This document shows positions 196 to 37,933 of a stretch of DNA of 41,181 nucleotides, piece after piece. Both the position numbers and the translations under genes were made by a program. The notes beneath the pieces are model-generated. The model worked only from the letters and a program-made list of their open reading frames with translations, searched no databases and was not told where the DNA came from. Numbering within the stretch: the first letter of the stretch is position 1; the number at the start of each line of letters is the position of its first letter. The DNA is from Pandoraea anhela (GTDB lineage: Bacteria > Pseudomonadota > Gammaproteobacteria > Burkholderiales > Burkholderiaceae). The stretch covers positions 1 through 41,181 of the forward strand of contig NZ_CABPSB010000032.1 of the NCBI RefSeq assembly GCF_902459655.1. Direction: 5' to 3'.

Positions 196-456
196 TCAAT
201 GGCAGAGTTGCTGGCACTCCTTTACGGCCGCTGCCCGACGGTCGTCGATGTACTTCGCAAGATCCTCCACATGCACTCCCTTTGCGCTCTTCTGAGAGCC
301 TTCCATGCGAACTAATGGAAGCGCGATATCGCCTGCGCCAATCTTTCGCGTCAGCTTCTCGGCGCTCAGGTGAGAGAAGTAATCGCGGCACACTAGGTCG
401 ATAGGGACTACCGCGACAGCACCGTACTGAGCCATAAGTAGAAAAGTGGTGTTCAT
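196..456 (-). CDS. PrtN-like pyocin/prophage activator, 86 aa
   Basis: The 86-residue protein has the layout of the PrtN family (pyocin activator protein). It starts MNTTFLLMAQYG, followed by a VCRDYFSHL segment, a GDIALPLVR segment and a C-terminal helix with DLAKYID and a KECQQL ending. PrtN of Pseudomonas aeruginosa binds P-box sites and switches on pyocin genes; homologues occur in many prophages and integrated elements. I chose the ATG at 456 because a strong AGGAGG site sits just upstream and the family begins there. It follows the replication-protein remnant by 11 bp, so the two are probably one transcript. No pyocin structural genes are visible in the window. Confidence 0.8.
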   Translation of the reverse strand: MNTTFLLMAQYGAVAVVPIDLVCRDYFSHLSAEKLTRKIGAGDIALPLVRMEGSQKSAKGVHVEDLAKYIDDRRAAAVKECQQLCH

Positions 457-467
457 TGGCCACCTCC

Positions 468-875
468 TCACGCTTTGCCAGAATCGGTTGGTCGCTCTTT
501 TGTCGCCATCCAAAAGTAGCCGTTGTCTTGACTCCAATACCACGCGTGGTCATCCAGCGTCGCGCCGGTCTCCAGTGCTGAATCGTACGCAGCGACAATC
601 GCTTCGGCGGCGCAATCCGCGAGGAAGTGTTTGACGGTCTCCGATTCAGGGATCGTGATGCCGCGACTCGCCCAATAGCGCTTCTCGTTCAACTGATGCT
701 CGTCAAAGTTCTTGACGATGTATTTGCCGATGTAGGAAGCGATCTTGTGGCGCAGACCCACTTCGCGATTCGGATTTCGAACGTCGACATTGCCGTTGTC
801 TTCGCCGACGACGCGCAACCACAGCGTCCGCAGCACTCGGTAAGGGGAGTAGTTCAATACGTTCGTGTCATTCAT
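468..875 (-). CDS. C-terminal part of a rolling-circle replication initiator, 135 aa
   Basis: The central segment (about residues 42-75) contains YIGKYIVKN followed by KRYWASRGI and an IP motif. This is the pattern of the C-terminal half of rolling-circle replication-associated proteins of filamentous phages and small plasmids. The HUH and first catalytic motifs, expected upstream, are missing, and the DNA before residue 1 is not coding in any obvious frame. The ATG at 875 has a GAGG site eight bases upstream, so the shortened protein may still be made. It is either a remnant or a domesticated C-terminal domain. Family assignment is from pattern memory, not from a search. Confidence 0.6.
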   Translation of the reverse strand: MNDTNVLNYSPYRVLRTLWLRVVGEDNGNVDVRNPNREVGLRHKIASYIGKYIVKNFDEHQLNEKRYWASRGITIPESETVKHFLADCAAEAIVAAYDSALETGATLDDHAWYWSQDNGYFWMATKERPTDSGKA

Positions 876-2290: not shown

Positions 2291-2410
2291 TTACCGGTCC
2301 GACTTCGAGGGCACCACGCGTTCGGAGTCGCATTCTAGGTCACTCGTTGAGATTCAGAGCATTCCGATACCTCAATAGGGAATCTCCTTGGTCGACCCGG
2401 ACGTGATGAG

Positions 2411-2446
2411 TACCCAGAAACGAAAACGGAGCCGAAAGGCTCCGTT
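2411..2446 (-). terminator. Rho-independent terminator after the small membrane-protein genes
   Basis: A perfect 9-bp stem (AACGGAGCC 2425-2433 with GGCTCCGTT 2438-2446) closes on a GAAA tetraloop. On the minus strand it is followed by TTTTCGTTTC. It sits about 20 bases after the stop of the 90-aa membrane protein gene and would end that leftward transcript. Confidence 0.8.
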
Positions 2447-2467
2447 GACTTGTGCGCGCAGGCGACT

Positions 2468-2740
2468 TTATCCGTACCGCTTTACCAGCAGTCCGCTACC
2501 AATGAGACCCGCGATCATTGCGCCTATCGTAACGATGACGCTGGGCGTGAGAAGCGCCACAGCAAGGCCGACTGCAGTCCCACCGCTGAGAGTGGATGCG
2601 AACTTGATCATCCCGCTAGCAGCTTGTGAACGATGCGAATTCGCGGGAATGGTTCGGCCGTGCGCAAGACGCATCTTCTTGATGGAACGCGCCTTCGATG
2701 CGCTAGCTGCAAGTCTTTTCCGCGTCGGTGTGGCTGACAT
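2468..2740 (-). CDS. Small membrane protein, 90 aa
   Basis: It has a basic, Ser/Ala-rich N-terminus (MSATPTRKRLAASASKARS) followed by two hydrophobic segments near residues 45-62 and 66-85, separated by a short turn, and ends in KRYG. A GGAG site six bases before the ATG at 2740 supports this start, although the frame is open four codons further. It overlaps the end of the next gene upstream by 38 bp in another frame, suggesting translational coupling. Family not recognised; small two-helix proteins are common in phages and mobile elements. Confidence 0.55.
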   Translation of the reverse strand: MSATPTRKRLAASASKARSIKKMRLAHGRTIPANSHRSQAASGMIKFASTLSGGTAVGLAVALLTPSVIVTIGAMIAGLIGSGLLVKRYG

Positions 2741-3017
2741 CAAATACTCCATTGGCTAATGTCACCTCTTGGACCGTGTGCGCAGCAGCCACAATCACGA
2801 TCATCAAGAAGCATGTGGATACTAGCATGACTGCTGGCGGCTTCCACTCGTGATCCTCCCCGCGTGCCATCATGGCTGCGGACAAGAGGATGCCGCATGC
2901 GATTGCCGCGATAAAGCAAATCCAAACAACGACGAGATGTGGTCCTGTGTCGGCGACCGCGTAACCTCGAATTCCCGCTTGAACGGCAAGAATAACTCCC
3001 CCATACAACCAGCCCAT
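2703..3017 (-). CDS. Small multi-pass membrane protein, 104 aa
   Basis: Three hydrophobic stretches are visible (about residues 4-22, 27-49 and 62-82), with a charged loop (ARGEDHEWK) between the second and third. The ATG at 3017 lacks a good ribosome binding site, and an in-frame stop lies shortly upstream. It lies just after a 41-codon membrane ORF and overlaps the next gene, so it probably belongs to a coupled group of three. No family recognised. Confidence 0.5.
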   Translation of the reverse strand: MGWLYGGVILAVQAGIRGYAVADTGPHLVVVWICFIAAIACGILLSAAMMARGEDHEWKPPAVMLVSTCFLMIVIVAAAHTVQEVTLANGVFDVSHTDAEKTCS

Positions 3018-3041
3018 CGAGTCGAACGCTTCGCCCCAAGC

Positions 3042-3167
3042 TCATGCCACCCGCTTGGTTGCTGGCGTCACTAGCCATCTTGCTACGCCAAAGAATCCAT
3101 AAATCAAGCTCGCTCCGAAGAGTGGCAGCAACGCTTCAAGCAGTACCCATTTAGTTGCGGGAGACAA
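3042..3167 (-). CDS. Tiny membrane protein with TTG start, 41 aa
   Basis: A TTG at 3167 is preceded by GAGGAA at suitable distance. The peptide (SPATKWVLLEALLPLFG, then ASLIYGFFGVARWLV) has one strong hydrophobic helix ending in a basic tail. It ends 25 bases before the 104-aa membrane gene and reads the same way. The coding claim rests on composition, the ribosome site and the neighbourhood only. Confidence 0.4.
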   Translation of the reverse strand: MSPATKWVLLEALLPLFGASLIYGFFGVARWLVTPATKRVA

Positions 3168-3399
3168 ATGAGTGTTCCTCGTCGTGTATCAAAACTTCTC
3201 CTGCGGACTTGCCGGTATCTCCCGGTTGATATGGGCGCGGATTGTACGTCAGCAATCTAGCGTTGAGTCGATGGCTGAGGGGCGTATCCAACGTGGACAA
3301 TCGCTTCTTTGCCTATCCCGCTTGCGGTTGCCGAGAGGCTCAGAGGGTATTGGCGAGGGCAGATATAAGAGTCCGCCCAAACAGACGATACCGCGATAC

Positions 3400-3545
3400 G
3401 CTTTCGTTCCCGCACGGGAACGAAAGCCTGCAAGCCGAGGAAGTTTGGGAATTTCGTATACGAACGGGTACGAAATCGGTCTTCGGCCCCTCGTAGCACC
3501 GCTTTGGAGAGCGGTGAACCTTGACGGGCAATGCCTCAATTGAGG
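3400..3545. promoter_or_regulatory. Cluster of four palindromes (operator or origin-like)
   Basis: Four palindromes lie within 146 bp. The first is a 13-bp perfect inverted repeat around CA at 3400-3427. The second is TTCGTATACGAA at 3453-3464, which also sits in an ATTTCGTA...TACGAAAT pair, 3451-3458 with 3469-3476. The third is CACCGCT/AGCGGTG at 3497-3516. The fourth is CCTCAATTGAGG at 3534-3545. The first two share TTCGT and ACGAA arms, as expected for repeated sites of one dimeric protein. The surrounding gap (3168-3716) shows no gene. Confidence 0.55.
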
Positions 3546-3716
3546 AGCGCGGCTGTGCGTTAGCTCGGAACGTTGCCGTTGATCTCGCGTGTATCTATCG
3601 TCACCGACGGGTCGAGAACCGTCGCTTGCCAACGGCCGAAGTTGGCCGACTACGACCACTCCTGAAAGGCTATTTGCGCGACCCGAAGCGGAAGTTGGAA
3701 GCTGCCGTCAATTCGC

Positions 3717-3956
3717 TCAGATGCGCGACTTGCCCCAGAGGACCGTGCATCGCCCTCCTCGGGCTGCCATGTATTCCTCAGTCTCTGCTATGAGGCGTGC
3801 GCGGCGTTCTGTCGAACATTGAAAATCATTTTCCCAAAGTAACAGTCCGCCGTCCACGCCATATTCGACCACGCCCTCGACAATCCCGGACTCGTCTTTG
3901 TAGATGAGGTTTAGACACTGGTGATGCAGATATTCGAGGCGAATAGCGGGCTTCAT
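3717..3956 (-). CDS. Small hypothetical protein, 79 aa
   Basis: The protein (MKPAIRLEYLHHQCLNLIYKD at the start) is soluble, with a probable beta-rich N-terminal half and a helix (ERRARLIAETEEYM) near the end. The ATG at 3956 has TAGGA seven bases upstream. AT-rich DNA upstream may hold its promoter. No family recognised. It stands alone in the element between the palindrome cluster and the STAND gene. Confidence 0.5.
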   Translation of the reverse strand: MKPAIRLEYLHHQCLNLIYKDESGIVEGVVEYGVDGGLLLWENDFQCSTERRARLIAETEEYMAARGGRCTVLWGKSRI

Positions 3957-4594
3957 AAATTTTCCTAAACCGTTGATTCTTTCGGAAGCCGGGTAGCCTC
4001 TTCCTATTCGAGGAATTCCGATTCAACCAGAAAATCACGATGTTCAAAGATTCAAATTCAGACTAAAAGCGAACTGTCATTTTTTTGACTCAACAAGCAA
4101 TTTTTTACAGCCCGCTTATGGCCGTTTGTAGTCGTTCTTGAAGGACCACTTTAGACACAGGGTAGACATTCAAACACGCGCCAACGTTGGCAAACTCGGT
4201 TGCCCGGAGAGCTAATCAGGGGGAGCAGGTCATTCGATTTCTCGTGCCGTTGCGTGTTGACACAGAGGGGGCGTAACCCGAAACACCAGCGCGCGCGACG
4301 AACCGCAAGAAGTCAGCCATAAAGCGGGAACAGAAAGACATTCGCGCCAAGTTCGACATACATGAGCTGTCTTGGCCGCAGCGCAATGTCAGTTGAGCTT
4401 GCCTAGATCATTCGGCGCGGTCTGGAGACTTTCCTAGACCGTCTATTTGAAGCACCCCAATGACAATCTCCGGCCGGGGGGGCGACCGAAGATTGCGCGG
4501 CGTGACATGCATGCTGGTCAATCGACTATGCACTTCCACGATTCGACGTAAGTGAGTCGACCCGCCACAAGTTCCGTGCAGAATGCCTCGCGGG
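3957..4594. other. Intergenic stretch, no gene seen (about 0.64 kb)
   Basis: It is AT-rich from about 4000 to 4110, with two T-runs, and GC-richer after that. No reading frame resembles a protein. An inverted pair GACCCGC/GCGGGTC (about 4558-4596) lies at the 3' end of the STAND gene with a 24-base spacer; it is a weak terminator candidate at best. Some of the stretch may be decayed mobile-element DNA. Confidence 0.4.
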
Positions 4595-7387
4595 TCAATA
4601 GTCGACAAGAGGGAGATTCTCTTTGTTGGACTCCCGCCGGGAAATCGCTTCATCTACCCTGTTCCGCAGAGTTTCCCAGGATTGCTCGATTGCCCTGAAC
4701 CGCTTATCGTTGGCGAACTTTCGGCGTCCAGATGTTAGGAGTTCTTCCGCGCGGGACATTAGACGGCCACAAAGATCTTTCTGGGTGCTGGCCAGGTCAT
4801 GTAGCTTCCGGTCAATCGTGATCGCCATGGCTTCGATCGCAGAAAGCACGCGACGAGCGTTCGTAATGCGAGCATCGCCTAGCTTCGACAGCAATTCCAA
4901 GGTGTCAAGCTGAGCAGAAGTTCGTCCCAAGCCTTCTTCGTGGATGCCGGTCCATAGCCACATTTGATCATGCATGTCGGCGCGCCGGTTTTCCAGGTCC
5001 GCTGCATCATCGCCCCGATATTGAGTTATAGCCACTCTGAGCGCTTCGCTCGCCTCGAACATTGCCGAAATAGCGCCATACAACGAGCCAGCTTTCGCTT
5101 GATCCGAGGCCTTGCTGGCAAGCGCCGCAGACTTTCGTACAGCCCAATCCTGAGATCCTGGTGACCTATTGGCTAGGGCTGCCTCAGCTGCTTCCAGTGC
5201 GCCGACGTAGTTCTCGGCCGTCCACTCAGCTTCGAACCAGCATTCGAACACTTCTGGCTTTTTGCAGCCGGCCGTAAATGCTTTTCTTGCTAGCGTTCTT
5301 GCGTGGTCGATTTGCGGCGGAACCTCTTTAAGATGTAGTGCTGCCTGATAACTTAGAAGATCGAAGTGGTCTTGCGTCCGCTTTCGTGCGTCCTTAATCG
5401 TGGCCAAGGCCAGAGGAATATCACCAATTCGGACTAAGGCTGCAGCTTGTGAGATCGCAGCAGCCACTCGACTGTCTCGCGTCGGCGTACGTTCATCCCT
5501 TTTTCTGAAGGCCGCAATATCTTTTTCCAGACGGCCCCGGTCCGTCACAAGTGTGGTTGTCGGGTCAACTACCAATCGTCGAGTATTGTCAGGGACTCTG
5601 AAACGCGCCACCGAAGCCAATGCCGGCGCAGCGACAAGAAACAAGGACTGCAGTTCGCCGAGCCCGCCTTCGATTAGCTCAGACGGGTAACCTAGAACTT
5701 CACAGAGCTCCACGGTTGATGCTTCACCGAGTAACGCCACGGCCAGCAATATTCTCTGAGCTTCTGGTGACAGTAATTCGATTTCACGTTTGAGCGCTGC
5801 GGCGCGCACTGACGCGCCACGCTCGCCCTTCCATTGAGCGATAGCCTCATTAACGCTATACCATCTCAATAGCCTGAGAAGTGATTCGGAAAAAAGAGGA
5901 CTTCCGTCGCTGGTCTGGTGAATCTTCTCTATTTCCTGGGTAGTGAGCTTTGGAAAGGCAAGCCTATCACGAAGGGCTTCCAAATACAGGGGGAATTCAT
6001 CAGCCAGTGTGAGGCCGGAAATTTTTATTACGTTATCGTTTGAAAAGCTCTGATTGAATCGCGTTGTTAGAAGGAGCCGCGATGAGCTTCCACCAAGCAT
6101 CATCCCCAACTCCAAAACTTGCCTTTGCTCTTCGCCGCTAAGCGAATCAACATCATCAATAACAACAAGTGACGTGGTACTGGAGAGCCCCTGCTTAACC
6201 ATTCTTCGCAGCTCCACTGATGTCGCGCCATCAAGTTCCGCAGTCGTGAAGGGCAATCGTCCACAAATTGCTACGAGCAATTCGGCATACGATGTGTAGT
6301 GCCGCTCTGGCATCTTGACGTACTGATCGTCAAAGGCTTTGAATTGCCGCTCTTTTGCTGTGAGCCACATTACTTGCTCAAACGGAGCGTCAGGCGTTTC
6401 AGAGACGCGCTCTGCAAATTCATACGCGATGCTAGATTTTCCTAGCCCGCCTTCGCCTGCCAGAACTTTTACGTGAGACAGGTCATCTCCTAGCCATCGC
6501 CACAGTGCATTGACGATTCGATCTCGTCCGATAAAGCGGGGGCATATGAAGTTGCGATCCGGAAGATTGTGGGGGATCCTATTTACGCGGAACAAGCCTG
6601 TCAGTGGGGGAGGGTCAACCCGTAAATACGGGTTTGGGCGATCTCCGTTGAGCTCCAAGATTCTCGGTCCTTTCGCTTCGATGCACTCATCGGCTCGGCG
6701 GCAATAGACTGAATCTTTTAAGAAAAGAGGCTTCTTTTTCTCATTTCCCGGGCCATCTTTAAGAAAGTGCAATGGAGGTACACCTGAGGGGCGCTGGGGA
6801 ATATGCAAGAGCAATAGGGTTGCAGCCGTTCCATCTGCTTTTTTTGTGTCGACAGGCATTGCGGTAATTTGAACGCGCTCGCCTGTGAACTCCTTGATTG
6901 ATGCTTTTAGTGCTTCAATATCCAATGACTTTGCATCGATTCCGACGACGTCAAATCGAATTTCAGATTCAGTTTCGCAAACACCAAAAATTAAATAACC
7001 ACCAAAGGAGTTGTATAAACTTACGACTCGCAGTATGAGTTTTCCTTTTCCATACGGGGACGTGTCGAACATTTCCTTGTAGTCAAGTAGTTCGAACTCG
7101 ATTGGTGCACATATGCCGTCTCGACAGATGACATCCAAAACATCTCTAGATAGACGGCCTTGTCGAGAAAACTCGGAAATTGATTTCTTGACACTATCGA
7201 TATTCCAGCCCGCGCTGACGGTAGTCAAATTTTCGATCTTATCGTTGTCAACGATTGTCGAGGGTTGATGTAACGCTGACAAGATTTCAACGATGTGAGG
7301 TTCGCTCGGGCGATGATCGTTGCCCTCCGATGCATATGCCCGAGCCAGAGCTTTTGAAATTAACGTCTTGGTAGGATTCTTTCTCAT
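4595..7387 (-). CDS. STAND ATPase with N-terminal AlbA/Schlafen-type domain, 930 aa (candidate defence protein)
   Basis: Three parts are visible. Residues about 97-237 look like an AlbA_2 (Schlafen) fold, with an IEFELLDYK segment, the conserved NSFGGYLIFGV strand-turn and a later VVGID. Residues about 280-480 form a NB-ARC-like NTPase: RFIGRD, Walker A GEGGLGKSS (311-319), Walker B LVVIDDVD (407-414), an LLLTTRF sensor (438-444) and a GSPL motif. The rest is helical and TPR-like. STAND proteins of this plan (Avs, bNACHT) sense phage proteins and activate an N-terminal effector; here the AlbA/Schlafen domain would be that effector. The ATG at 7387 was chosen over a TTG at 7411; neither has a good ribosome site. 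Base composition is clearly more AT-rich than the flanking core, pointing to transfer. It is a single gene with no partner. Confidence 0.75.
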   Translation of the reverse strand: MRKNPTKTLISKALARAYASEGNDHRPSEPHIVEILSALHQPSTIVDNDKIENLTTVSAGWNIDSVKKSISEFSRQGRLSRDVLDVICRDGICAPIEFELLDYKEMFDTSPYGKGKLILRVVSLYNSFGGYLIFGVCETESEIRFDVVGIDAKSLDIEALKASIKEFTGERVQITAMPVDTKKADGTAATLLLLHIPQRPSGVPPLHFLKDGPGNEKKKPLFLKDSVYCRRADECIEAKGPRILELNGDRPNPYLRVDPPPLTGLFRVNRIPHNLPDRNFICPRFIGRDRIVNALWRWLGDDLSHVKVLAGEGGLGKSSIAYEFAERVSETPDAPFEQVMWLTAKERQFKAFDDQYVKMPERHYTSYAELLVAICGRLPFTTAELDGATSVELRRMVKQGLSSTTSLVVIDDVDSLSGEEQRQVLELGMMLGGSSSRLLLTTRFNQSFSNDNVIKISGLTLADEFPLYLEALRDRLAFPKLTTQEIEKIHQTSDGSPLFSESLLRLLRWYSVNEAIAQWKGERGASVRAAALKREIELLSPEAQRILLAVALLGEASTVELCEVLGYPSELIEGGLGELQSLFLVAAPALASVARFRVPDNTRRLVVDPTTTLVTDRGRLEKDIAAFRKRDERTPTRDSRVAAAISQAAALVRIGDIPLALATIKDARKRTQDHFDLLSYQAALHLKEVPPQIDHARTLARKAFTAGCKKPEVFECWFEAEWTAENYVGALEAAEAALANRSPGSQDWAVRKSAALASKASDQAKAGSLYGAISAMFEASEALRVAITQYRGDDAADLENRRADMHDQMWLWTGIHEEGLGRTSAQLDTLELLSKLGDARITNARRVLSAIEAMAITIDRKLHDLASTQKDLCGRLMSRAEELLTSGRRKFANDKRFRAIEQSWETLRNRVDEAISRRESNKENLPLVDY

Positions 7388-7411
7388 ATTTTTTGACGCA
7401 TATCGGCACAA

Positions 7412-7886
7412 GAATTTTAGTTTTGCATGCCTAACCGATTTTTTACCCCGGCGGGAAGGCTGGTCTAGTGTTGGGTAATATACGCGAGTCCGGTGCGATT
7501 AGACAATTATTACCGAGTTGGGGGGGGGGCGCTGCTCGGGGCCGCTCGCCCCTATTAACAACACAATTGACACTCAACTTGAATTCGCTCGGGGGGAATT
7601 TCAGCCTCTGAGTGTTCCGAGGCTCAAGGCTGGGCGGCAGCTCTAAACGTTGCGCCATAGACGCGTAAAGCGTTGCCAATCGGTCTTGCAAAGCGGTCCT
7701 GAGCGACTTGACTGTCCATCACGGTTCTTACTCGCGCCGAAAATATCGTTCCTTGAGAATCAATGGCTTACCGTCTCCATGCAACACTCCAAAATATTTG
7801 TCGCCCGTCTCGAAGCTCGTTGCCGACCCAGCCCATTGGATTAAAAGCCCTGCGGTTCAAATCTCGACGCGGTCCTCTGGCGTCTT
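7412..7886. other. Intergenic stretch between integrase and STAND gene, no gene seen
   Basis: About 475 bp with no convincing reading frame. It holds a homopolymer run of about ten G near 7520 and, near 7848-7880, a short match to generic tRNA anticodon/T-arm sequence (GGATTAAAA, then GGTTCAAATC) that does not fold into a complete tRNA. The upstream signals of the STAND gene must lie in its left part. Confidence 0.4.
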
Positions 7887-8987
7887 CTAGGGCTTGCTGG
7901 ACCATGTATCCAGTGCCGGAGTCAGTTTCGCAAGCCACGGCCAAGTGGCGAATCGGTTGCCGGTCTCGCGGATATGCGTATATCTCTTAAGGCTCGCCCA
8001 ACTTCGATGTCCTGTTACGGCAGCCACGCGAGGTATCGACAGGCCTTGCTCGAACAGCCAACTGGTCCCCTCATGGCGCAGGTCGTGAAATCTCAGATCC
8101 TGAATTTGCAGAAACTGGCATGCGCGCGTGAATGCTGCTCCGACGGCATCGGTGGTGTGGGGGAAGATTCGGTCTTCGCCTTCGTGTCGCGGTATCGCAG
8201 ACAGAATGCGCATGGCTTCCGGGGGAAGGTCGCACCAGACGTCGTTGCCGATTTTTTGTCCTGGGTGCTTCATGTCACGAACGAGTATCCGTGAGCCTTC
8301 TCTATCCAAGTTCGACCATTTGATCGTCACGATTTCCTCCTGGCGTCGCGTCGAAAATATTGCGAACGGCACGATGTACTGCATCGGTGCGCTTTTCGGA
8401 TGTCGTTTGCGAATTCCCACGAAGTGTTCGAGCAGTAGATCCAGCTCAGCAAAACTTGCGCGCCTCTCCCGCTTGGCAGACTTGGCCGTATGACCGAGGT
8501 GGGATAGCACTCGTCGCGCATCCTTCAAGGCTTGCTCCGACAACGGATATCCCCAAGCCGGTCGCGCGACGTTGACGACCGCCCCGATGTGAGACATATA
8601 GTTACTCGCGGTTTGGGGCAGGACGTCGAGGCTCTTCGCGAAATCAACGTAATCGGTACTTCCCAACTGACTGCAACGCTTCTCCCCGATAGGCGCTCGT
8701 GCAACAGCATTCAGTACTTGTGCCTTCGTCCGCCCGATCTTCTTGATCGATTCGTCGACGTATTTCCTGATCACCTCACTAAATAGAGGGTCGACCACCG
8801 CTGCGGCTTCGATGGCCCCCGGCCGCGCCAGCTCCTTCTCCCTCTTGACGATCCACGCCGCCGCAGCCTGCCTACGGTCAAACGTCTTCGCCTCGGTGTA
8901 GGCCACGCGCCCGTCCCGCTTCAGGCGGATCTGTGCCGTATACCCTATACTTTTGTCCTTTCGTTCCCGTACTGAGATTGTTCCCAT
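7887..8987 (-). CDS. int: Tyrosine recombinase (integrase) of the dusA-targeting type, 366 aa
   Basis: The catalytic residues of tyrosine recombinases are visible: Arg in FSTRRQEEIV (214/215), HDLRH (301-305), GH in VTGHRSW (326-327) and the nucleophile Tyr336 in RYTHI. The N-terminal part holds a short arm-binding region (GYTAQIRLKRDGR) and a core-binding domain. The length is normal for phage-type integrases. The gene starts 142 bp before the dusA start and reads away from it, which is the arrangement of elements integrated in the 5' end of dusA. It should carry out insertion and excision of the element. No clear ribosome site precedes ATG 8987; repeated GTGCTA boxes lie directly upstream and may be arm sites or an autoregulatory operator. 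Confidence 0.92.
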   Translation of the reverse strand: MGTISVRERKDKSIGYTAQIRLKRDGRVAYTEAKTFDRRQAAAAWIVKREKELARPGAIEAAAVVDPLFSEVIRKYVDESIKKIGRTKAQVLNAVARAPIGEKRCSQLGSTDYVDFAKSLDVLPQTASNYMSHIGAVVNVARPAWGYPLSEQALKDARRVLSHLGHTAKSAKRERRASFAELDLLLEHFVGIRKRHPKSAPMQYIVPFAIFSTRRQEEIVTIKWSNLDREGSRILVRDMKHPGQKIGNDVWCDLPPEAMRILSAIPRHEGEDRIFPHTTDAVGAAFTRACQFLQIQDLRFHDLRHEGTSWLFEQGLSIPRVAAVTGHRSWASLKRYTHIRETGNRFATWPWLAKLTPALDTWSSKP

Positions 8988-9129: not shown

Positions 9130-10140
9130 ATGAATTTACCCTCCCGCCGCGTTAGCGTCGCACCGATGATGGATTGGACGGACACGCACTGTCGCGTTTT
9201 CCATCGTCAGCTCTCGCGTCACACATGGCTTTATACCGAGATGGTCACGACCGGTGCGTTGTTGCATGGGGATGTCGCTCGCCATCTCGACTTCGACGCG
9301 GTGGAGCATCCCGTGGCGTTGCAACTCGGCGGCAGCGAGCCGCAGGATCTGGCACGCGCAGCGAAATTAGGCGAGCAGTGGGGGTACGACGAGATCAATC
9401 TGAACTGTGGATGCCCGTCGGAACGTGTGCAGCGCGGTGCGTTCGGCGCTTGTCTGATGGCCGAGCCGACGCTGGTCGCGGATTGCGTTAAGGCGATGCG
9501 CGACGTGGTGCAGGTGCCCGTCACCGTCAAGCATCGTATCGGTATCGACGACGTCGAATCGTTCGCTTTCGTCGAGGACTTCGTGGGCAAGATTGCCGAC
9601 GCCGGCTGCACGACATTCATCGTGCACGCGCGCAACGCAATTCTCAAGGGACTCAGCCCGAAGGAGAACCGCGAGATTCCGCCACTGAAGTACGACTATG
9701 CCTACCGTCTGAAGCAAGTTTTCCCGCACCTTGAAATCCTGATCAACGGCGGTGTAAAGACGCTCGACGAAGTCGAGCAACACCTGCGTCACGTCGACGG
9801 CGTGATGTTGGGGCGTGAGGCCTATCACAATCCCTATGTGCTCGCAGGCGTGGACGCACGTTTTTATGGCGACACGTCGCCGATAAAGTCGCGTGAAGCC
9901 GTCGAGGACGCGCTCATCGAGTACGCGGCCTCGCAAGTCGATAAGGGACAATATCTGGGGGCGATTACGCGTCACGCGCTGGGGTTGTACCGCGGTGTGC
10001 CGGGCGCGCGTGGCTGGCGTCGTGTGTTGTCCGATCCGAAGCGTCTGAAAGCCGGTGTCGGTGCGTTCGAGGAAGCGCGCGCACAATTACGCGCGGGCGC
10101 ATTTTCCGAACGTGACGATGCGGTGTCGGCGGCGGCATGA
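9130..10140 (+). CDS. dusA: tRNA-dihydrouridine(20/20a) synthase DusA, 336 aa
   Basis: FMN enzyme that reduces uridine 20/20a in the D-loop of tRNA with NADPH. The N-terminus MNLPSRRVSVAPMMDWTD, the catalytic cysteine segment NCGCPSERVQ, the HARNAILKGLSPKENR loop and the GVMLGREAY phosphate-binding end are all DusA hallmarks. I chose the ATG at 9130 because homologues begin there. The frame is open 31 codons further upstream, but that part lies in element DNA and has no family resemblance. The ribosome site is weak (AAGAGA). The gene is intact although the element sits immediately upstream, so its promoter is now element DNA. Confidence 0.95.
   Translation: MNLPSRRVSVAPMMDWTDTHCRVFHRQLSRHTWLYTEMVTTGALLHGDVARHLDFDAVEHPVALQLGGSEPQDLARAAKLGEQWGYDEINLNCGCPSERVQRGAFGACLMAEPTLVADCVKAMRDVVQVPVTVKHRIGIDDVESFAFVEDFVGKIADAGCTTFIVHARNAILKGLSPKENREIPPLKYDYAYRLKQVFPHLEILINGGVKTLDEVEQHLRHVDGVMLGREAYHNPYVLAGVDARFYGDTSPIKSREAVEDALIEYAASQVDKGQYLGAITRHALGLYRGVPGARGWRRVLSDPKRLKAGVGAFEEARAQLRAGAFSERDDAVSAAA
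9161..9195. other. Probable attachment site (att) inside the start of dusA
   Basis: The codons for VAPMMDWTDTHCR lie here. In known dusA-integrating elements the crossover falls in this conserved 5' segment, and the element restores the gene's start. The matching repeat that would mark the other end is not found at 1-9000, so it should lie to the left of the window. The exact crossover cannot be set from one end. Confidence 0.5.
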
Positions 10141-37765: not shown

Positions 37766-37836
37766 GGTGATGAAGGGGTGATGAGGGGGTGATGAGGGGG
37801 TGATGAAGGGGTGATGAAGGGGTGATGAGGGGGGGG
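37766..37836. repeat. G-rich 11-bp tandem repeat, six units
   Basis: Six direct copies of GGTGATGARGG run from 37766 to 37831 and end in a G8 run (37829-37836), followed by further G-runs to about 37860. Runs of four to eight G on one strand could form quadruplexes. It lies between the receptor gene and the BNR gene. Confidence 0.85.
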
Positions 37837-37933
37837 TGAGGGGGGGGATGAGGGAGGGTGAGTGAGGCGATGAACGCCGATGGGTTCGGGAACGCGGGCC
37901 GCCGTGGGCGGCTCGCGTCTCGATTTAGAGGAA

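Follow-up and report, generated by a model that had tools for sequence, protein, structure and literature searches.

A candidate NLR-like defence protein with a Schlafen-type domain, carried as cargo of a dusA-integrated island in Pandoraea anhela

INTRODUCTION

The effectors described for phage sensors of the STAND class (signal transduction ATPases with numerous domains) include DNases, NADases, and proteases, among others. Avs proteins, such as Avs3 and Avs5, carry an N-terminal effector, a central NTPase, and a C-terminal repeat sensor in one protein, and bNACHT proteins likewise place an NLR-like logic in a single chain. Here, we analyzed a gene of Pandoraea anhela at positions 4595 to 7387 (minus strand) of contig NZ_CABPSB010000032.1, the 41,181 nucleotides of which are hereafter called the window. 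Its 930-amino acid product is a STAND protein that joins a SLFN_AlbA_2 domain, an NB-ARC domain, and a TPR-like C-terminus, and the gene is cargo of a small island integrated at dusA. On balance, we favor the reading that this protein is a single-protein, NLR-like anti-phage system with a Schlafen RNase output, and regard it as moderately probable.

The closest described plan is that of SAMD9 and SAMD9L, from animals and some bacteria, where an N-terminal AlbA_2 domain occurs with a STAND-type P-loop and a TPR array; further features of the family are a C-terminal OB fold, a Sir2-like domain placed between AlbA_2 and the NTPase, and a Walker A motif with glycine in place of lysine (PMC5445408). 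The AlbA_2 domain of human SAMD9 is described as an anticodon nuclease for tRNA-Phe (PMC13245274). For animal Schlafens, N- and C-lobes and a helicase domain are described (PMC9482658). Their core consists of two lobes, and the helicase part occurs in the long members. For prokaryotes, a survey of BREX systems states, citing Taboada et al. 2025, that several Schlafen-linked systems can both detect phage signals and cut tRNAs (PMC12839542); the present protein resembles these bacterial Schlafens in that a Schlafen domain would serve as the immune effector.

RESULTS

Domain architecture of the STAND protein

The gene is an intact open reading frame (ORF) starting at ATG. Residue numbers refer to this 930-amino acid form; a TTG start gives a 938-amino acid form, used in the Pfam run, whose numbers are 8 higher. 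Both SLFN_AlbA_2 and NB-ARC exceeded the curated cut-offs of Pfam. The SLFN_AlbA_2 domain covers residues 97 to 236 (99 to 236 in Pfam; window 6680 to 7099, minus strand like the other parts of the gene), with an E value of 8.3e-7 and a score of 30.0 bits against a cut-off of 25.3. It is followed by the NB-ARC, or AP-ATPase, domain at residues 290 to 498 (5894 to 6520), a winged-helix-like region at about residues 510 to 636 (5480 to 5860), and a helical TPR-like putative sensor at about residues 638 to 930 (4595 to 5476). Profile searches tied the winged-helix-like region weakly to winged helices of the ArsR type (E 0.0045 to 0.013), and it also lies within the structural matches to CED-4 and NLRs. 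The three-part STAND plan with an AlbA/Schlafen N-terminus, which the initial annotation had read from the letters alone, is therefore borne out, for the N-terminal domain also by the profile matches to Schlafen structures given below. No other SLFN_AlbA_2 match was found in the same genome. No PADLOC-DB family matched the protein at E up to 1, and NCBIfam gave only two weak sub-threshold matches.

Conserved Schlafen residues and their possible function

We aligned the window protein with 16 relatives (17 rows in total). The closest, from a Methylotenera metagenome-assembled genome (locus L002), showed 57% identity in its best segment, covering query residues 9 to 927 of the 938-amino acid form. 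The 15 others, with 18 to 37% identity to the window protein, came from plasmids (six, rhizobial and Phaeobacter), viral contigs (six), and genomes (three). The putative active site is formed by E97, D102, K104, and E138. Residues E97, D102, and K104 are invariant in all 17 rows, as are N126, G129, G130, and G135; at position 138, 5 rows have E and the other 12 have D. The first three conform to the E-x4-E/D-x-K pattern of SLFN_AlbA_2 RNases, with D as the second residue here and E in SLFN11.

A profile of the AlbA_2 domain, built from 8 rows, matched 15 distinct sequences in the PDB at E up to 1. Fourteen are Schlafens, named by their depositors as members 5, 8, 11, 12, and 14 (E 4e-11 to 9e-6), and the last is an entry named CbCash (PDB 9ylu, E 3e-6). 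CbCash, presumably of bacterial origin and considered here by its name and length (297 amino acids), is too short for a STAND module. When HMMER aligned the profile to SLFN14, the family's E, D, and K fell on E206, E211, and K213, with the same spacing as E209, E214, and K216 of SLFN11. These SLFN11 residues are reported to be essential, SLFN11 activity needs dimerization, and Schlafens without one of the essential residues are nuclease-deficient (PMC9482658); in SLFN13, mutating any of E205, E210, and D248 diminished activity (PMC5862951). The protein thus shares with SLFN11, SLFN13, and SLFN14 the core RNase motif and the domain family, with aligned E/[E or D]/K; unlike these animal proteins, it has a single AlbA_2 domain fused to an AP-ATPase. 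Judged from the sequence, the kept active-site residues would favor an RNA-cleaving function.

Alternatively, the AlbA_2 domain could bind nucleic acid without cutting it, and the protein would be a STAND regulator or nucleic-acid sensor working like MalT, which might control the element. A survey of pAgo proteins lists AlbA_2 as DNA-binding (PMC6299218), and SLFN5, the chains of which are among the best matches of our profile, is nuclease-deficient (PMC9482658). However, none of the 17 rows has lost any of the three positions essential in SLFN11, one of which is missing in nuclease-deficient Schlafens (PMC9482658), and the gene lies in the cargo slot, outside the shared element modules. We consider this alternative rather unlikely.

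An Apaf-1-like switch and a divergent C-terminus

The NTPase carries Walker A at residues 313 to 318, Walker B at 409 to 415, TTR at 441 to 443, and GSPLF at 495 to 499. Residues G313, G314, G316, K317, D411, D414, T441, R443, P497, and L498 are invariant in all 17 rows. The protein thus shows the P-loop, Walker B, TTR, GxP, winged helix, and C-terminal repeats of an AP-ATPase (NB-ARC) STAND protein. The C-terminus is its most divergent part among the aligned relatives (averages of per-domain identity exclude the shorter relatives L006 and L009, which are kept in the residue counts), and such fast divergence would be expected of a putative sensor.

The AlphaFold model of the 930-amino acid protein, made from an alignment of 8, had a mean pLDDT of 78 and a pTM of 0.43. 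Its matches in Foldseek and VIA included the STAND-TPR protein PH0952, CED-4, Apaf-1, plant NLRs, Avs3, EfAvs5, and SAMD9. In fold comparison, the NTPase was nearest to CED-4 and NLR structures; it is of the Apaf-1/CED-4/plant-NLR kind (NB-ARC, AP-ATPase), without NACHT. PDB entry 3lmm, which we take to contain AlbA_2, stood at rank 29 in the Foldseek list of the full-length model (E 1.6e-5).

Comparison with described systems

With AlbA_2, a STAND NTPase, and a TPR array after it, the protein comes closest in plan to SAMD9, which Foldseek matched with low TM-scores (9zjw, E 8.3e-8, 712 alignment columns). Membership of the SAMD9 family is ruled out. There is no room for a Sir2-like domain, because only 53 residues (237 to 289) separate the Pfam domains, roughly half with a pLDDT under 50, and the Walker A lysine K317 is present in 17 of 17 rows. 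An OB fold was not detected either: no such family appeared in Pfam at E up to 1, and the model is helical after residue 600, with low confidence beyond about residue 816.

The initial annotation had likened the protein to Avs and bNACHT sensors and tentatively placed its effector outside the described Avs types. The single-protein STAND plan stands, and Avs3 (8dgc, E 4.3e-8) and Avs5 (9jap, E 1.8e-6) were among the Foldseek matches. PADLOC-DB includes Avs models. The protein matched none of the PADLOC models at E up to 1, has a different effector, and has an NTPase nearest to CED-4 and NLRs, and we keep it apart from Avs only tentatively; SAMD9, the closest plan, had not been named. bNACHT membership is ruled out, as Pfam listed NB-ARC and AAA families and no NACHT at E up to 1.

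Among open-licence PMC articles, our search turned up no account of an AlbA_2-NB-ARC-TPR protein from bacteria; the negative is weak, as the preprint of Taboada et al. 2025 (10.1101/2025.07.24.666596), which may cover AlbA_2-STAND fusions, fell outside it. By word search, Schlafen, SLFN, and AlbA are absent from an eLife 2020 survey of NTP-dependent conflict systems (PMC7159879). On the evidence available, the protein does not form a new category and would belong to single-protein STAND defence, here with a putative Schlafen effector.

Distribution and neighbors of the relatives

The gene is rare and patchy. Counting its own genome, it was found in 2 of 398 genomes of the family (E limit 1e-10), 1 of 369 of the class, and 3 of 398 of the phylum (E limit 1e-30 for both); these counts are lower bounds, with at most two first-look candidates scored per genome. 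In tblastn, 12 plasmid records matched over 48 to 71% of the query, 10 of them typed conjugative; the matches H5 to H11, which share query range and score, are represented by H5 (L009) alone. The phage collection held no record matching at E 1e-5, and a near-mode search of E. coli genomes with L014 DNA only found no relative. Three viral contigs with partial matches stayed outside the alignment, namely L019 (query residues 273 to 443, part of the NTPase), L030 (58 to 82), and L031 (58 to 161).

The initial annotation asked whether homologs cluster in defence islands. We scanned 20 hand-picked neighboring genes from 11 of the 16 relative loci with PADLOC, and eight of the 11 loci had a neighbor matching below 1e-10. 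At L002, these were a CBASS cyclase and, at a distance of about 430 bases from the gene, a phospholipase, and at L006, a DruM-like methylase, Vsr, and an OLD/AriA-like ATPase. DruH of Druantia III is the next gene at L008, and an AAA ATPase lies 3.6 kb away at L013. L014 has Hp1 and Hp2 on one side and a phage portal and terminase on the other. The remaining matches were a methylase at L015, beside an integrase-like ORF recognized by eye, an MmeI-type restriction enzyme at L018, and PDC-S31 at L020. L005 had only a match of 7e-5, and the scanned neighbors at L016 (terminase and portal in Pfam) and L017 (Prim-Pol) had none. Outside the PADLOC scan, the annotated or visible neighbors at L004, L007, L009, and L021 showed no obvious defence gene, and L011 is a contig of 3.4 kb. 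Taken together, relatives were seen next to CBASS, Druantia III, or restriction genes, or within prophages. Whether homologs lie mainly outside mobile elements, which would have spoken against the initial annotation, cannot be fairly judged from relatives drawn mostly from plasmid and viral collections.

An ordinary signaling STAND protein without a conflict role, placed on the element by accident, would agree with relative L021, which by eye sits between ordinary chromosomal genes, and with the plasmid neighbors at L004, L007, and L009, whose annotation holds no defence gene. The patchiness, the neighbors of the other relatives, and the contents of the sister slots described below make this reading very improbable. 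A third option is defence against other mobile elements (plasmids, rival islands, or helper phages of the element) and not against host phages generally. It would suit the small size of the island and its genes resembling replication and excision functions, as well as relatives that lie on largely conjugative plasmids and on viral contigs. However, the sister slots hold systems best known for acting against phages, such as SIR2-HerA, and we consider this option clearly unlikely.

A dusA-integrated island with a variable cargo slot

Islands specific to dusA (Farrugia et al. 2015) are mosaic in their cargo and include a pyocin-related gene; their integrase lies at the dusA 5' end, their attachment (att) sites are direct repeats, and they carry two semiconserved sites of 21 bp (PMC4482086). 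In the window, a tyrosine integrase (7887 to 8987, minus strand; Pfam Phage_integrase, E 1.5e-14; PHROG integrase) adjoins dusA, and a 28-base repeat at the dusA 5' end (9154 to 9181, plus strand) has an exact copy at G000:C4:1044-1071 (minus strand). The proposed carriage on a dusA-integrated element is therefore confirmed. Since the window is an entire contig, the left end of the island lies outside it; the second att copy is on another contig, and the element was not seen whole in one piece. On the element side of that copy, the roughly 1 kb of G000:C4:1-1043 (L025) is richer in AT and holds a 193-amino acid ORF without PHROG match, and perhaps a second, tandem element lies at this att.

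The element further contains a PrtN/excisionase-like gene (196 to 543, minus strand; Pfam PyocinActivator, E 1.5e-29; phrog_1300 excisionase) and a rolling-circle replication-initiator-like ORF (468 to 875, minus strand), which matches only positions 161 to 287 of the 289 of phrog_3419. Compared with five sister elements, the window lacks about 390 bases near 838 to 842, and this ORF therefore looks truncated. The GC content is 51.1% in the STAND gene, 55.6% in the remaining part of the element, and 63.9% in the host part, where two eight-G runs with three bases between them lie at window 37829 to 37847.

Of 31 other genomes from the genus, 8 contained an integrase relative (E 1e-40), in two cases only in pieces. 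We compared seven of these loci, leaving out the eighth, from a 1120-contig assembly. All seven sister elements share left and right modules with the window in blastn, and have unmatched middles of 3.7 to 8.9 kb at the place of the STAND gene. The shared left part ends at window 2396 to 3647 and the shared right part begins at 7889 to 7928, which outlines a variable cargo slot at approximately 3650 to 7890. Five sister stretches have two att-like copies 9.4 to 13.0 kb apart (0 to 3 mismatches to a 20-base core), and L050 and L054 have one each in the stretch examined. In L048, the stretch that matches the window's left end starts within about 0.3 kb of the att copy. No match to the STAND gene was reported for the seven sister genomes: five appear in the family scan without one, and the other two belonged to that scan as well, in which only the genome of the window and G114 matched.

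The cargo of the sister slots is unrelated to the STAND gene, and five of the seven slots contained matches to defence-type models in a scan that did not include all smaller ORFs. L053 carries SIR2 (1.5e-153) and HerA (3.3e-234) by PADLOC at L053:2944-5723 (plus strand), and L048 a TIR_2 protein and a SIR2_2 protein. The cluster L051:8817-13968 holds a DNA methylase (3e-65), a CARF6-type protein (3.6e-51), and an ORC-CDC6-like ATPase. A 422-amino acid ORF in the same slot, by eye a calcineurin-type phosphoesterase, had no PADLOC match. L052 has a SoFic-type Fic protein (1e-32), a PDC-M35A/protease-type protein (8.5e-28), a PDC-S31 protein, and a DUF4238 protein. L049 has a HipA-like gene, named by eye with a weak PADLOC match (2e-6), and an 815-amino acid NACHT protein (L049:11495-13942, minus strand) with an N-terminal sub-threshold Pfam match to Mrr_cat, which is a candidate second single-gene STAND system. 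The 618-codon ORF of L050 (L050:12394-14250, minus strand), without a Pfam match at 0.001 or a PADLOC match at 1e-5, is possibly an unknown defence gene. The integrase of L054 is in two separate pieces, and this element is probably a degenerating copy. Two ORFs of the shared left module of the window had no PADLOC match. The island is an ordinary member of the dusA-specific islands; what is added here is that, in this genus, their cargo slot is rich in genes of defence type, which strengthens the defence setting first proposed.

Dead cargo in a decaying element would agree with the replication-initiator-like ORF that lacks bases kept by five sisters. The 930-codon frame is intact, the catalytic and switch motifs are kept, and a promoter-like site, TTGTCT-18-TATATT, lies upstream of the gene (7477 to 7506, minus strand; 1 found against 0.3 expected in the consensus scan, suggestive only). 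We give this explanation next to no weight. A ten-G run is found at window 7520 to 7529, 13 bases upstream of the promoter-like site, and slippage control of the STAND gene through it is possible.

DISCUSSION

We propose that in the resting state the NB-ARC domain would keep the protein off until the variable TPR-like C-terminus recognizes a product made during infection. Nucleotide exchange would then lead to an apoptosome- or resistosome-like oligomer, in which clustering may activate the N-terminal Schlafen/AlbA_2 domains as a metal-dependent RNase, with tRNA as the most likely substrate. Cleavage of tRNA would stop translation and result in abortive infection. The sensor and assembly half of this scheme follows established STAND logic, and the RNase half follows the analogy with SLFN11 and SAMD9. 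The fuller picture, to which we give slightly less than an even chance, is a bacterial apoptosome-like wheel of the Apaf-1/CED-4 type with a Schlafen tRNase as its own effector. It would be a prokaryotic counterpart of SAMD9/SAMD9L in reduced form, sensing phage and shutting off translation through tRNA cleavage, and would be spread by a family of small dusA islands that exchange immune genes at one slot.

Several points weigh against a phage-defence RNase. The E-x4-[DE]-x-K pattern is possibly a hallmark of the entire AlbA_2 family, so motif conservation alone is no proof of an RNase and shows that nothing has been lost. The D252A change of the third carboxylate of SLFN11 left activity undiminished (PMC9482658), so position 138 adds little. 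The domain arrangement in the model is uncertain, given the pTM of 0.43 and the alignment of 8, and no Schlafen chain was among the best 50 rows of either full-length fold comparison, which says little because one domain can fill the list. With regard to context, the neighbors of relatives were hand-picked without a background rate, the PADLOC methylase and ATPase models are broad, and around seven relatives (L004, L005, L007, L009, L016, L017, and L021) no clear defence gene is seen. The mobile setting of the relatives as a whole is biased, because most came from the plasmid and viral collections searched. Among the sister slots, none of three scanned ORFs of L050 and not the L049 NACHT protein (at 1e-5) matched PADLOC, and L054, whose ORFs look transposase-like by eye, was left out of the model scan.

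If the proposal is true, NLR/Apaf-1-like switches and Schlafen/SAMD9 tRNases, both best known from animals, would be joined in one bacterial protein. The origin of the SAMD9 plan would become testable, by asking whether a single AlbA_2 domain clustered by an AP-ATPase with an intact Walker A acts as a tRNase. The sister elements, in turn, supply a short list of further untried cargo genes from the same slot.

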